A DNA stretch of 64,000 nt from Microcella sp. (GTDB taxonomy: Bacteria; Actinomycetota; Actinomycetes; Actinomycetales; Microbacteriaceae). The stretch spans positions 1,612,001 to 1,676,000 of the forward strand of contig NZ_JAHHDS010000003.1 of assembly GCF_019739195.1 (NCBI RefSeq). The letters run 5' to 3'. A model generated the notes under the pieces. That model was given only the letters and a program-made list of their open reading frames with translations, made no database searches and had not been told where the DNA came from. The translations under genes were made by a program, and so were the position numbers. Of this stretch, positions 13,374-64,000 are shown piece after piece. Position 1 is the stretch's first letter. Each line of letters opens with the position of its first letter.

Positions 13374-13694
13374 GTGAGCGAGCCGACGAACCCAGCCCCT
13401 GAGCGCGCGACCGTGCAGGTGCGGCGCGCCCCGAAGATTCCCGCCTTCATGGTGGTCGGCGGGCTCATCGGCTTTCTCGTCGTGCTCATCATCACGCCGC
13501 TCTTTCCCGTCGACCCGCTCGTCGGGCTGCCGGCGCTCATCGGCTACTTCTCGCTCTACGGCATCACCATCGGCGTCGTCATCGGCGCGATCGTCGGCAT
13601 CGCGCTCGACCGTCGTTCGCAGAAGCGCGCCCGCACTCTCGACGCCGAGCGCGAGGTCGTCGAGCCGCTGCCCCTCGAGGGCGAGCTCGAGTAG
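13374..13694 (+). CDS. Small two-helix membrane protein
   Basis: A 106-residue protein with a polar N-terminus, two hydrophobic helices (FMVVGGLIGFLVVLIITPLF and IGYFSLYGITIGVVIGAIVG) and a charged C-terminal tail with RRSQKRARTLDAERE that should face the cytoplasm. I do not recognise a named family. Similar small proteins are often found near purine genes in related actinobacteria, as I recall, but no function is known to me. The GTG at 13374 begins VSEPTNPAPERA; an upstream ATG at 13366 leads to a stop after three codons in another frame. Confidence 0.7.
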   Translation: MSEPTNPAPERATVQVRRAPKIPAFMVVGGLIGFLVVLIITPLFPVDPLVGLPALIGYFSLYGITIGVVIGAIVGIALDRRSQKRARTLDAEREVVEPLPLEGELE

Positions 13695-58689: not shown

Positions 58690-59016
58690 CTAACGGGCGA
58701 TGCCGAGGAACACCAGTATTCGGCGTTCAAGGTCGGTGAGCTGCTGTGCCGTGACCTCTCCCACACGGGTACCAACGTTCGCGCGCCTGACGGTGGTGAG
58801 CTTGTCCACCATCGCGTAGCTGTCAGCGTCGACACCGGAGTTCTCGGTTGCCGGAATCAGCACGCGCAGAAGTGGTGCATCGACGACGGTGGTCGTCAGA
58901 GGGCACACGGTCACCGAGTCGAGGGCGGCGAAGAGGTCGTCTTGCATGACGACCGCCGGGCGCGGCTTGCTAGCGTAGACCCCTCCGGCGACGAGCCGGA
59001 TCTCGCCGCGTTTCAC
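58690..59016 (-). CDS. MazF/PemK-type toxin (mRNA interferase)
   Basis: A 108-residue protein of the MazF family: KRGEIRLVAGGVYASKPRPA at the start, then VTVCPLTTT and a C-terminal region with LTTVRRANVGTRVGEVTAQQ and LERRILVFLG. Such toxins cut RNA at short sites when free of antitoxin. It overlaps the antitoxin gene by ATGA, the normal order being antitoxin first. Confidence 0.9.
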   Translation of the reverse strand: MKRGEIRLVAGGVYASKPRPAVVMQDDLFAALDSVTVCPLTTTVVDAPLLRVLIPATENSGVDADSYAMVDKLTTVRRANVGTRVGEVTAQQLTDLERRILVFLGIAR

Positions 59017-59216
59017 TCGTCCCAGCTGGTGCTGATGGCCTCGACGAACTGCATGTCGTCACTGTGTACCGACGCGGCGGCGACCGATGCTGCCTGGCGC
59101 TGCGCCTCGACCGCGAACGATGTCGAACGCACATCAGGCACCCACACCTGAACCGGCCGCAGGCCTTCGGCGCGCAGTCGGTCTCGGTACGCAGAGACAC
59201 GGGCTCGAGAAGACAT
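59013..59216 (-). CDS. MazE-like antitoxin (DUF3018 type)
   Basis: A 67-residue protein starting RARVSAYRDRLRAEGLRPVQ and VWVPDVRSTSFAVEAQRQAA, the DUF3018 pattern of antitoxins paired with MazF. The front binds DNA, and the acidic tail (FVEAISTSWDE) should bind the toxin. It lies 45 bases from the divergent gene at 59262. Confidence 0.88.
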   Translation of the reverse strand: MSSRARVSAYRDRLRAEGLRPVQVWVPDVRSTSFAVEAQRQAASVAAASVHSDDMQFVEAISTSWDE

Positions 59217-60281: not shown

Positions 60282-60743
60282 CTAGCCCACCGCGCGCTGC
60301 ACCAGTTCGGTGATGGCTTTCTTCTCGGCTGCGCCGAGCTTCGTCACGGCGAACGACGCCGGCCACATCGCCCCGTCGTCGAGCTGCGCGGTGTCGTTGA
60401 ACCCGAGCGTCGTGTAGCGGGTGTCGAACTTGCTGGCCGGCTGCACGAAGCACAGCACCTTGCCGTCGAGCGCGTAGGCGGGCATGCCGTACCAGGTGCG
60501 CGGAGCCAGCTGCGGAGCCGCCGCCATGATCACCTCGTGCAGCGTCGTGGCGAGCGCGCGGTCGCCCTCGTCAGGAAGCTTCGCGATCGCCTCGAGTAGG
60601 TCGTTGAGCTCGGCCTCGGCTTTGGCGGCGCCCTTGGCCCGCTTCGCCTGTGCGCGCAGCTCGGCCGCCCGCTCCTTCATCGCGGCCCGCTCGTCCGCGG
60701 TGAACCCGTCATTGCCGGTGGATGCTCGGCTCTTGTCGTTCAT
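60282..60743 (-). CDS. DUF1801 protein
   Basis: A 153-residue protein with a charged Ala/Lys/Glu-rich helical first half and a DUF1801 domain in the second (PRTWYGMPAYALDGKVLCFV, DTRYTTLGFNDTAQLDDG). The family includes frataxin-like iron-binding proteins such as YdhG, but no metal site is clear here. It is the last apparent core gene before the accessory island. Confidence 0.85.
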   Translation of the reverse strand: MNDKSRASTGNDGFTADERAAMKERAAELRAQAKRAKGAAKAEAELNDLLEAIAKLPDEGDRALATTLHEVIMAAAPQLAPRTWYGMPAYALDGKVLCFVQPASKFDTRYTTLGFNDTAQLDDGAMWPASFAVTKLGAAEKKAITELVQRAVG

Positions 60744-60750
60744 GGAGGCC

Positions 60751-60756
60751 AGGGTA
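60751..60756 (-). promoter_or_regulatory. Leaderless -10 box of the DUF1801 gene
   Basis: TACCCT on the minus strand ends 7 bases before ATG 60743. The gap to the methyltransferase stop is only 49 bases, so the island boundary falls here. Confidence 0.45.
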
Positions 60757-60792
60757 GACCCGCACTAGGCGCAGACGCTCTAGGTCTCTCGA

Positions 60793-62043
60793 TCAGCTGA
60801 CGCGGTTGCGGTGTTGGGCGATGTATTCGTTCCTGGGGTGTGACGATTCGCCGGTGAATCCCTTGAAGTCCCCGAGCCGATACATCGGGCCGTTCGCGGT
60901 CTGTAATTCGTCAAGTTCGAAGTCACGAGCGAGGACAGCAAGCTGCCGCTGAACCAGCGACTCAGTTCCGACAGTCATGGCCGCGACGAGACGATCGAGC
61001 GACACGAAGTCTGCCGCCCGCGAGAGCTCACGATAGATCGGGTCATGAAGATCGCTGACCAGCTCAGGAACTTCGTGGGGCGTTCCCTCGTGGAGCAGGG
61101 CACTCTTGATCGCGCGTCCGACGGCTTCGGCAACCGGCGGCGGAAAGGCATTGCCAATCTGCCGGTACTGAGAAGTCTTTCGCCCAGTGAAGACCCAACC
61201 TGAGTCCGATCCCCAACCCTGCAGACGAGCCACCATCGGGATCGTCAGGCGCGGAGCGCGGAGAGAAAAGTGCGGCGCGTCGGGCCCGGGAGCTTCCTCG
61301 GCGATTCCCTTCCCATCGACACCGAGCTTCGACCATGCCAGTTTCGCCCTCGTGGGGCCAAGGTCGGCACCCCCGTGCTTCTTGCTTCCGCCGACGAGGG
61401 TGGGCGCGATCCCGTTCGCGAATGAGGCCCACTCGCGAGCGTGAAGCCACCCATTCTCGGCCATGAGGTCGGCGATCGCCTCGCCGACTGTGACTCGGCT
61501 TCCGAACGGCTCGGGCCATCTGAAGTAAGCCGCATCTTCAGGCTTCATCGCGACGAGGACGAATCGTGGCCGAAGCTGTGGAAGACCGAAGTCCGCCGAT
61601 GTGAGTAGGCGCCAGTCCCCGACGTATCCGAACTGTGCGAGCCTGTCGAGAACGTGCTGGCGGTACGCCGCGAACCGCGGGGCAGCTAGGCCACGAACGT
61701 TCTCGAGCATGAGAGCCCGCGGCTTCACGACCCCAACCTGCTCGACTGCCCAGGCAAACAGGTCCCGCTCGTCGGCGGACCCGAGCTGCTTGCCCGCCAT
61801 GGAAAACGGCGGGCAGGGCACACCGCCCGCGAGCAGCGCCACACCTTCATATTCGGATGGATTCCAGACGGCAGGGTCTGCGACATCCCCGACGGCGACA
61901 CGCCATGTCGAGTTCGCCTCCAGTGTCGCCGCCGCTTGAGAGTCGAGCTCCACTGCAAGAGCATGATGGAAACCCGCACGATGGAGACCGTGAGCCTGGC
62001 CGCCGGCACCGGCGCAAATCTCGACGACTTCTAGGTCGCTCAC
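60793..62043 (-). CDS. C5-cytosine DNA methyltransferase
   Basis: A 416-residue enzyme that methylates cytosine in DNA. Motif I is EICAGAGGQAHGLHRAGF, motif IV has Cys77 in GGVPCPPFSMAG, motif VI is LMLENVRGL (Glu114), motif VIII has QLRPRFVLVAM, and motif X is YRQIGNAFPPPVAEAVGRAI. An extension of about 80 residues follows motif X. The GTG at 62043 was chosen over another GTG 15 bases upstream because GGGAG stands at the right distance. It is divergent from an HNH nuclease gene and is likely the protecting enzyme of a restriction system. Target sequence unknown. Confidence 0.93.
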   Translation of the reverse strand: MSDLEVVEICAGAGGQAHGLHRAGFHHALAVELDSQAAATLEANSTWRVAVGDVADPAVWNPSEYEGVALLAGGVPCPPFSMAGKQLGSADERDLFAWAVEQVGVVKPRALMLENVRGLAAPRFAAYRQHVLDRLAQFGYVGDWRLLTSADFGLPQLRPRFVLVAMKPEDAAYFRWPEPFGSRVTVGEAIADLMAENGWLHAREWASFANGIAPTLVGGSKKHGGADLGPTRAKLAWSKLGVDGKGIAEEAPGPDAPHFSLRAPRLTIPMVARLQGWGSDSGWVFTGRKTSQYRQIGNAFPPPVAEAVGRAIKSALLHEGTPHEVPELVSDLHDPIYRELSRAADFVSLDRLVAAMTVGTESLVQRQLAVLARDFELDELQTANGPMYRLGDFKGFTGESSHPRNEYIAQHRNRVS

Positions 62044-62182
62044 AAGTAACGCTCCCACTCCTGAGACAACAAGGTCTCGTAGCTATATTGTGCTGCCATT
62101 CGGACGGGAACCTGACTCCGTCGGCACCCGTGTCCGGCCGAGTTCGCTGGTTTGTGTCCGATCTGTCACGGCGTCGAGGTAG

Positions 62183-62198
62183 TCGAACACATGTTCTA
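62183..62198. promoter_or_regulatory. LexA-like SOS box between methyltransferase and HNH genes
   Basis: TCGAACACATGTTCTA differs at one position from the actinobacterial SOS box pattern TCGAAC-N4-GTTCGA. It is 81 bases upstream of the HNH start and about 140 upstream of the methyltransferase. The remaining part of 62044-62278 shows no further clear motif except AAGGAG before the TTG start. Confidence 0.6.
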
Positions 62199-62278
62199 AG
62201 GTACATCGTTGCCCAGACAATGTGCGTTTGATAGGCCAGAATCCAACTACAACTCATGTTGATCTCAAGGAGTTTCCG

Positions 62279-62983
62279 TTGCCAATAGACCCGATGCGCC
62301 CCAAGTCGTCGAAGGCGAGGGTGGCTGCCTTCGTAGCTCTGGTCGGCGAGGGCAACAAGTTCTCGAAGCTTGAGATGTTCAATGCGGTCCCTGGCGTTTC
62401 GCAGGCTGACCGGCGGATGCGCGATCTCCGTGAGATCGGATGGGTGATCGACAACTACAAGGGGAACCCGACACTCAAGCCCGACGAGTACCTCGTGCGG
62501 AAGATTGGCATTCGCGTCGACCTCGGCGAAAAGCCGCCAGTTTCATCGGGTCGCAAGTCGGTGACTGGAGCTAAGCGCCGTCGCATCTTCGATAGAGATG
62601 GCAATACGTGCCAGGTGTGCTTTATCGCTGGTGGTAGCGAATTCGCAGATGCCCCTGGCCGCCGCGCGACTCTGACGATCGGCCACATCATTCCAGTCGC
62701 GAGGGGCGGATCGGATGACGACGACAACCTGCGTACCGAGTGCCAGCGCTGCAACGACGAGTCTCGCGACGCGACATTGAATCCCCCTGACAAGAATGAA
62801 GTGTTGACTCGAGTTCGGAACGTGGGCGGCCGCGCCGACAAGCTGGAGCTCTTCCAGTGGATGCAACGCGGTAGCCGACCTTTGACGGACAAGGAGCGCA
62901 TATTTACGGACTGGGCTCGCCTTCCGGTTTCTCAGCGCATTGAACTGATGGCCGAACTCTCTCGCGAGGTTCACGGGTCTTGA
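62279..62983 (+). CDS. HNH endonuclease, probable restriction enzyme
   Basis: A 234-residue protein. Residues about 10-60 look like a winged helix (KSSKARVAAFVALVGEGNKF, RRMRDLREIGWVI). The HNH core is at 110-160: Cys111-x2-Cys114, His136 in IGHIIPVARGG, Asn150 and Cys155-x2-Cys158 as zinc and metal ligands. The start is a TTG at 62279, seven bases after AAGGAG; the longer frame from 62222 lacks such a signal. Divergent location next to a methyltransferase suggests it cuts unmodified DNA. An alternative is a modification-dependent nuclease. Confidence 0.87.
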   Translation: MPIDPMRPKSSKARVAAFVALVGEGNKFSKLEMFNAVPGVSQADRRMRDLREIGWVIDNYKGNPTLKPDEYLVRKIGIRVDLGEKPPVSSGRKSVTGAKRRRIFDRDGNTCQVCFIAGGSEFADAPGRRATLTIGHIIPVARGGSDDDDNLRTECQRCNDESRDATLNPPDKNEVLTRVRNVGGRADKLELFQWMQRGSRPLTDKERIFTDWARLPVSQRIELMAELSREVHGS

Positions 62984-63162
62984 ACCGCATCGCTTCGGCC
63001 TGGTCTTGGCGTCTGAAGAGTCCATAGTCAAGACTGAGCCTCCAGCCAGCGCCTTGTTGCTCTCAGATAAGCCGCTTCAACAGCGAGGCGGCGCGAGGCG
63101 ACAGGATTGTCTGCGTTTCAAGATAACCTCACATCAAAATTGTTGCAGGAGGGTCTGGCGCG

Positions 63163-64000
63163 ATGATGGGCGACTACGAGGATTGGCAAAAGGTGCTTTC
63201 CTCCGCCTTCTTGCTTCGACACGATGGCCCAACTGTGCTTTTTCTTGACGAGAGTGAGCTCACTCGGCTCCGACCGGACGCCGAGAATGCATCAGATGAC
63301 CTTGCCCATGCGGTGCGCAGTCGGCTCCGACTCGCGCACGGCCGTTTGATGTTCGAGCCCATCATGGCCTACTACAGGAAGTGGCAGCGGGGCACGCAAC
63401 TTGATGCGCCACCGGTGCTGCCAGTGATAGCCCTGACGGTGCTCGCTGCGACCAGGATGCGATCCGACGCGGAGGCGCGCTCCACCAACTACTACCTTCG
63501 GCTCGCGCAAGCGCTCACCCCAGTTGCCGACCCGGGCACCATCGAGTCTCTGCGTAAAGACCTAAGGGAGGGCGGTGCTTTCCTTGACGCGGTCGAGATG
63601 TGGCGCGGGTTGCACGAGTGGATTGAAAGGCAAGACGGTGCTGTAGGGGCCTCGACGATCCGGGACCACCCGCATCTTCAGCGGATCGGATACCCACTCT
63701 CACAAGCCCTCGTGCGACAGAGCGATCGCATTGCGCTCACCCGCTTCTTCCAGGCACTCGACTTCTCTCCCGGCGAGACACCTGATGCCCTCGTCATCGC
63801 CCGTGCGCTCGACATTTGGACGGCAGCGGCCCAGAACCGGCTGAGTGAGACCTTTATGCGTGCGCTAAGCGACGCGGATCTTCGCCAGCTGCTCGCCGAG
63901 GTTGTCGAAGCCCATGCGCGATCGTGGGACGGCCGGGTGCTGACCAGTGATGGGAAGCAAAGGATCGCAATGCGGCTCAAAATCGATCTTGATGCATGGC
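63163..64000 (+). CDS. Uncharacterised protein, 3' end beyond window
   Basis: An open frame of 279 codons that runs off the right edge. It starts ATG-ATG at 63163 behind GGAGGG. The product starts MMGDYEDWQKVLSSAF, and later shows PPVLPVIALTVLAATRM, NYYLRLAQAL, and IGYPLSQALVRQSDRIALTR-FF. From memory, this order (Trp/Tyr-rich start, AATRM, NYY-RL, then IG-P-SQAL-R--DR) recurs in large uncharacterised proteins of bacterial defence islands, but I cannot name the family. No enzyme motif, signal or membrane helix is visible in the part seen. It lies 179 bases downstream of the HNH gene on the same strand; that gap has no gene. Confidence 0.75.
   Translation, partial: MMGDYEDWQKVLSSAFLLRHDGPTVLFLDESELTRLRPDAENASDDLAHAVRSRLRLAHGRLMFEPIMAYYRKWQRGTQLDAPPVLPVIALTVLAATRMRSDAEARSTNYYLRLAQALTPVADPGTIESLRKDLREGGAFLDAVEMWRGLHEWIERQDGAVGASTIRDHPHLQRIGYPLSQALVRQSDRIALTRFFQALDFSPGETPDALVIARALDIWTAAAQNRLSETFMRALSDADLRQLLAEVVEAHARSWDGRVLTSDGKQRIAMRLKIDLDAW

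Follow-up and report, generated by a model that had tools for sequence, protein, structure and literature searches.

Near the right-hand end of a 64,000-nucleotide stretch of the Microcella sp. genome (assembly GCF_019739195.1, contig NZ_JAHHDS010000003.1; G000:C3:1612001-1676000; hereafter the window, meaning this whole stretch), a DNA methyltransferase gene, an HNH nuclease gene and the start of a large gene lie next to each other. Do these three genes represent a new defence system, as was suggested by the original prediction, which was made from the window sequence alone? We extended the contig rightward (as L002, where window position = L002 position + 58999) and find that a cargo site between DUF1801 and katG very probably holds two separable defence modules side by side, both of known kinds: an operon of Druantia type IV and a restriction cassette. 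Judged from its sequence, the locus is of an ordinary sort, with well-preserved Druantia type IV genes next to the cassette at a site of variable cargo, and is no new system.

The methyltransferase, the HNH nuclease and the same-strand third open reading frame (ORF), which starts at 63163 and is still open at the window edge, were described correctly (ORF listing, Pfam). The expectation of a variable defence region with more components past that edge was also borne out, as extension completed the cut ORF to 683 aa and added three further genes (druL, druE and druK) before the locus ends ahead of katG (Table 1). The methyltransferase gene is on the minus strand, followed by the HNH gene, druF, druL, druE and druK, all on the plus strand, and then by katG on the opposite strand. 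The HNH gene starts 164 bp from the methyltransferase gene and the two are divergent, while druF/druL and druE/druK overlap by 4 bases each and the gap between druL and druE is 21 bases. None of the six reading frames is interrupted or truncated, and the catalytic motifs are intact. A change of character relative to the genes on the left had been noted and is real, GC content at third codon positions being 0.67-0.72 across the six genes as compared to 0.89 in the flanking katG and 0.92 in DUF1801, and overall GC content 0.622 for the island vs 0.685 for window positions 1-60700. A TTG start, listed as part of this change, does not exist in these genes: the methyltransferase and HNH genes have GTG (or, for HNH, the ATG at 62294) and druF has ATG, the TTG belonging to an ORF in another frame (63006-63248).

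Table 1. Features of the locus; positions refer to the window unless preceded by L002.
Feature	Position	Strand	Description	Evidence
C5-cytosine DNA methyltransferase, DruM family	60793..62058	-	421 aa, GTG start	Pfam, PADLOC, motifs
HNH nuclease	62222..62983	+	253 aa from GTG 62222; homologues point to ATG 62294	Pfam HNH, PADLOC REase_II, motifs
druF, cut at window edge	63163..64000	+	ATG 63163; full 683 aa = L002:4164-6215	PADLOC
druL	L002:6212-7138	+	308 aa, beyond window	PADLOC DruL4
druE	L002:7160-12589	+	1809 aa, beyond window	PADLOC DruE4
druK	L002:12586-13560	+	324 aa, beyond window	PADLOC DruK
Variable cargo between conserved DUF1801 and katG	window part 60727..64000		whole = L002:1728-13677	blastn flank ends

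The claim of a new system fails on the identity of the third protein, which is DruF, encoded in a DruF-DruL-DruE-DruK operon. The completed protein matches PADLOC DruF at 2e-288 (DruF2 model, residues 2-682 of 683) and the DruF4 model at 3.1e-262, and DruL matches DruL4 at 1.7e-123 (residues 1-307 of 308); neither has an above-cut-off match in Pfam or NCBIfam. For DruE the PADLOC E-value is 0, with DruE4 (2553 bits over residues 6-1804 of 1809) ahead of DruE2 (2079.5) and DruE1 (633), and DruK matches PADLOC DruK at 8.6e-116 and Pfam PDDEXK_1 at 5.5e-13. Because DruE and DruL are type IV-like, the profile matches assign the operon to Druantia type IV, with druK as an extra gene.

The IG-P-SQAL pattern that had drawn attention to DruF was believed to recur. 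In fact, the full pattern is found once (IGYPLSQAL at residue 175), with the shorter IG-P at 175, 378 and 619, the latter two outside the window. The motif itself is conserved across the DruF alignment: since S180, Q181 and D188 are invariant in 21 rows and I175, G176 and A182 nearly so, we interpret it as a genuine DruF signature, present once per protein and not as a repeat. DruE is a predicted YprA/MrfA-like helicase with intact ATPase motifs (Walker A GTGSGKT, DELH, QRVGRAGR), and its MZB match is slightly under the Pfam family cut-off. No nuclease signature is visible by eye in the C-terminal tail (28 rows listed), which agrees with a preprint (PMC12458937) stating that the Vsr domains of the type I and II homologues are inactivated. 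In a 9-row DruK alignment (loci L126, L128 and L134 omitted because of a broken, cut or weak DruK), C22, C228, C231, C237, H48, E120, D135 and D147 are invariant and K149 is present in 8 of 9 rows. We take this to be the residue pattern of the Cas4/AddB iron-sulphur nucleases. AlphaFold models (pLDDT, the predicted local distance difference test, 91.7 for DruL and 83.7 for DruF) and weak matches suggest a winged-helix-like start for DruL, and for DruF a helical plus beta-sandwich build with no recognised enzyme fold.

In the PADLOC 2021 paper (PMC8565338), Druantia type IV is composed of DruE, DruF and DruL and is without the type II genes DruM and DruG. Our locus agrees in having these three genes in one same-strand operon with near full-length model matches. 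It differs in carrying druK, a family of the PADLOC library whose name is absent from the main text of that paper, and in adjoining a DruM-type methyltransferase, said there to be missing from type IV; here the methyltransferase gene is divergent from the operon, and in G401 it is separable. Type II (DruM, DruF, DruG, DruE) shares DruE, DruF and an adjoining methyltransferase matching the DruM model, but here DruL is found instead of DruG, and DruM is divergent and part of a separable cassette. No DruG match was found among the seven proteins scanned (PADLOC, E ≤ 1, with the best 25 families listed in the case of the methyltransferase and of DruE), so that type II, with all four genes together, was ruled out. 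DISARM (a DrmA helicase plus DrmB and the nuclease DrmC) was also rejected, as DrmA matches are weak and lie inside DruE (best 5e-10, 36 bits) and no DrmB or DrmC match was listed. Type III (DruH-DruE; PMC13192584 and PMC13316683) has the YprA-like DruE helicase core in common with our locus, in which DruF and DruL replace DruH and the DruE tail is without a nuclease signature by eye.

The two remaining genes have two attributes of a type II restriction-modification system, a methyltransferase with conserved motifs and an adjoining nuclease gene with its motif intact. The methyltransferase matches Pfam DNA_methylase (2.1e-53) and PADLOC DruM (2.9e-200) and has the PCP, ENV, QxRxR and GNA motifs, while the HNH protein matches Pfam HNH (3.9e-9) and, weakly, PADLOC REase_II (1.4e-10), with GHI, DDNL, CQRCN and both CxxC present. 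The pair appears to form a separable type II-like cassette with the HNH protein as the candidate restriction enzyme.

Separability is most evident in a genome of the same genus, G401, where katG, HNH, DruM and DUF1801 are consecutive, with DruM 94% and HNH 82% identical to our copies. Neither DruF, DruL, DruE nor DruK was found in the 20 kb fetched at the same site, and DruE4 had no match genome-wide. Among 26 genus genomes, ours is the only one with a DruE4 match, in a scan at a looser cut-off where the control genome, Corynebacterium glutamicum, also matched. A survey of 394 genomes of the class, our own included (cut-offs E up to 1e-50 for DruE4 and 1e-60 for DruM), detected DruE4 in 22, HNH in 18, DruM in 41 and NaeI in 25. 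Of the 18 HNH genomes, 13 have DruM, 6 have NaeI and 3 have DruE no more than 10 kb from HNH, and two further HNH genomes (G317 and G143) have a DruM profile match in the stretch. For 17 of the 25 NaeI, DruM is at most 3.5 kb away; at 10 kb, DruM is near DruE in 2/41 and NaeI near DruE in 0/25. As 10 of the 13 genomes with the HNH-DruM pair are without any DruE4 match, and the pair stands in G401 without the four Druantia genes, the view that the first three genes act as a unit had to be given up. DruM and DruE coincide in 4 genomes against 2.3 expected (p 0.19), which is not above chance.

The same is seen from the Druantia side. We fetched 20 of the 21 other DruE4 genomes as long stretches (G099 was left out) and saw DruF in 16 of the 20; any DruM profile hit is missing from the stretch in 9 of these 16 (in G283 a methyltransferase is further out), as it is in 2 of the 11 named relatives described below. 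In a methyltransferase tree (52 of 85 hits, E up to 1e-125, L027 being omitted because it duplicates L200; support is good for 31 of the 49 inner branches), our copy groups with G401, that of G340 (Druantia) with G073, and those of L133/L125 (Druantia) with G239, each at 100/100, and neither G073 nor G239 is among the 22 DruE4 genomes. Such a distribution suggests that the DruM/HNH module and the Druantia operon have been gained and lost separately.

The 11 named relatives are a biased set because they were fetched with our own DruE. DruF, DruL, DruE and DruK were detected by profile in all of them, with flaws in a few: L134 has weak DruF and DruL matches, the DruK of L126 is split in two, that of L128 sits at the end of the contig, and both DruL and DruE are split in two in L130. 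The original prediction was to count as refuted if homologues of the third gene were never near methyltransferase or nuclease genes. This is not the case: DruF homologues do lie near such genes in 6 of the 11, with a strong DruM-clade methyltransferase directly upstream of DruF. A NaeI-family enzyme lies between DruM and DruF in five of these six loci (Pfam 5.5e-98 to 9.1e-111 in the four tested, the fifth, in L130, by profile only), one of them matching the solved NaeI structure (PDB 1ev7, 5e-76), and the sixth locus, L132, has Vsr (5.1e-20) on the far side of DruM. In the Pseudarthrobacter oxydans locus (L125), the gene directly downstream of the methyltransferase (L125:3011-3982, minus strand) encodes a 323-aa protein that matched nothing in Pfam or PADLOC at the cut-offs applied.

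Our cassette resembles those of the NaeI type (a C5 methyltransferase with a PF09126 enzyme and, in many cases, Vsr) in its methyltransferase clade and in a conserved segment, PT-VGGSKKHGG-DLGP-RAK, but an HNH enzyme replaces NaeI and there is no Vsr profile hit in L002. The segment is kept in 12/12 methyltransferases compared, whether NaeI- or HNH-partnered, which suggests a common target. In the middle part, taken as target-recognising with bounds of our choosing (residues 171-265), our methyltransferase shares 55-68% identity with the NaeI-partnered and 55-89% with the HNH-partnered enzymes. Since NaeI-family enzymes are the partners of close methyltransferases that resemble ours in this part, the cassette target is probably that of NaeI, which we take to be GCCGGC.

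Several observations weigh against the interpretation as two independent modules, or against parts of it. The type label is not clean: DruF scores higher with the type II model (956 bits) than with the best type IV model (870), and DruM is a type II gene. Moreover, druK is lacking in 13 of the 16 class-sample DruF loci, and structure comparison of the DruF and DruL models gave no reliable or convincing match. For the proposed target, the conserved segment may simply characterise the family, without distinguishing between targets, and GCCGGC is not under-represented around the locus (116 observed vs 126.1 expected, 0.92). NaeI near HNH in a third of the HNH genomes weakens HNH as the sole restriction enzyme. 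Finally, DruM is positioned directly upstream of DruF in the six named relatives, and HNH and DruE coincide in 4 genomes vs 1.0 expected (p 0.013, our own included), which may mean a functional link between the modules; it is, in turn, from the biased set of named relatives that the recurrence of cassettes beside Druantia comes. Taken to its end, and with DruM as a named component of type II, this line of evidence would unite all six genes in a single hybrid Druantia of types II and IV, with DruM marking self DNA for DruE and HNH as one of the nucleases. We regard this as unlikely, given the HNH-DruM pairs without DruE4 in the class and in G401, the DruF loci without DruM, the chance-level sharing of DruM and DruE, the varying partner nuclease and the divergent orientation of the methyltransferase. 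Also unlikely, in our view, is that DruM is no Druantia subunit but the methyltransferase of exchangeable NaeI-, HNH- or Vsr-cassettes, which would settle upstream of druF time and again through cooperation with Druantia. Restriction cuts in phage DNA would then supply ends or single strands for DruE and DruK, and any nuclease respecting the same methyl mark would do. We rate it low because NaeI is never, and DruM rarely, near DruE in the class sample, and because the recurrence comes from relatives fetched with our own DruE.

Within the two-module interpretation, a helper role for the HNH protein may be considered, because NaeI occurs near it in those 6 genomes: instead of being the cognate restriction enzyme, it could serve the cassette as an accessory or regulator, or as a modification-dependent nuclease. 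Among 15 aligned proteins (of 26 profile hits), the His, both Asn and the four Cys are kept in 6 (our own, G401, G106, G315, G003 and G223), one Asn is missing in 2 (G010, L126), and the catalytic His and Asn are lost in 7 that keep the remainder (all by eye); the other two HNH genes near DruE in the class sample (G340, G283) are of the latter kind. Modification-dependent enzymes do occur among wH-HNH proteins of 224-283 aa (PMC11037411), the comparison with our protein being one of size. On the other hand, our copy and those of G401 and G106 keep the full active site, with no NaeI found in their stretches, and the seven homologues with losses come from a different setting, each beside a separate unit with an SNF2-like helicase ORF (identified as such by profile only in L164 and L185) and a second ORF, unnamed, of ~480-590 aa; in the other eight genomes a helicase-cluster ORF is seen in G010 only. 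With its active site intact, our HNH protein is a plausible restriction enzyme, and the accessory role is possible without being probable. It is extremely unlikely that the locus is a decayed, functionless remnant, as could be argued from the single DruE4 match in the genus and from the split druL and druE in L130 (profile scan), considering the six full-length frames, the intact catalytic motifs and the preserved gene overlaps.

The helicase-associated HNH proteins deserve a remark of their own. A recurring actinobacterial unit (L164:5438-9480, L180, L184, L185, L200, L201, L202, and partly L193) combines an SNF2-like helicase with an unnamed protein of 480-590 aa and an HNH-family protein without catalytic His/Asn; a DruM-family methyltransferase is nearby, and in many cases so is Vsr or NaeI. 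PADLOC matches of the L164 and L185 proteins are weak and scattered, and the unit is a candidate uncharacterised system.

How might the two modules work? In the first (60793-62983), the DruM-family methyltransferase would mark host DNA at one sequence, and the divergent HNH enzyme would cut the same sequence if unmarked. For the second, the Druantia type IV operon from 63163 onward, we argue by analogy with type III, in which DruH is described as a likely sensor or partner and DruE as a helicase effector on phage DNA (PMC13192584 and PMC13316683). DruF and DruL may thus act as sensor or adaptor, detecting phage DNA or a phage protein, and might load DruE onto replicating phage DNA in a manner comparable to DruH, while DruK, a presumed Cas4/AddB-like nuclease, would make cuts in trans.

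The site itself is variable. In blastn comparisons with six genus relatives, homology of the left flank stops at L002 position 1728 in four, at 1766 in L120, and extends to 3968 in G401, whereas on the right it restarts at 13677 in all six. This DUF1801-katG interval (window 60727 to L002:13677; loci L115-L124) is a cargo hotspot of the genus, holding a type IV restriction enzyme in L116, TmtA-like and DrmB-like genes in L120, MzaB/C/E in L122, a ZorD-like helicase in L123, an HNH_2 gene in L119 and DruM plus HNH in L115. On its left, the window has a pair of MazE-like antitoxin and PemK/MazF-like toxin genes (58690-59216, minus strand; Pfam 2.3e-22 and 3.8e-19). On its right, an AAA_14/DUF4143 ATPase gene (L002:15971-17278, minus strand), matching the PADLOC candidate defence family PDC-S01 (2.8e-144), sits between katG and a tRNA Phe-Asp-Glu cluster.

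The firm identification closes the question of a new system, and a clean Druantia type IV locus with its context is of use. The useful novelty is the separability of DruM from Druantia. The natural pairs of closely related methyltransferase cassettes with and without Druantia (our genome and G401, G340 and G073, L133/L125 and G239) make the role of DruM in Druantia directly testable. What is new, if modest, is that a DruM-type methyltransferase next to Druantia can be part of an exchangeable restriction cassette.

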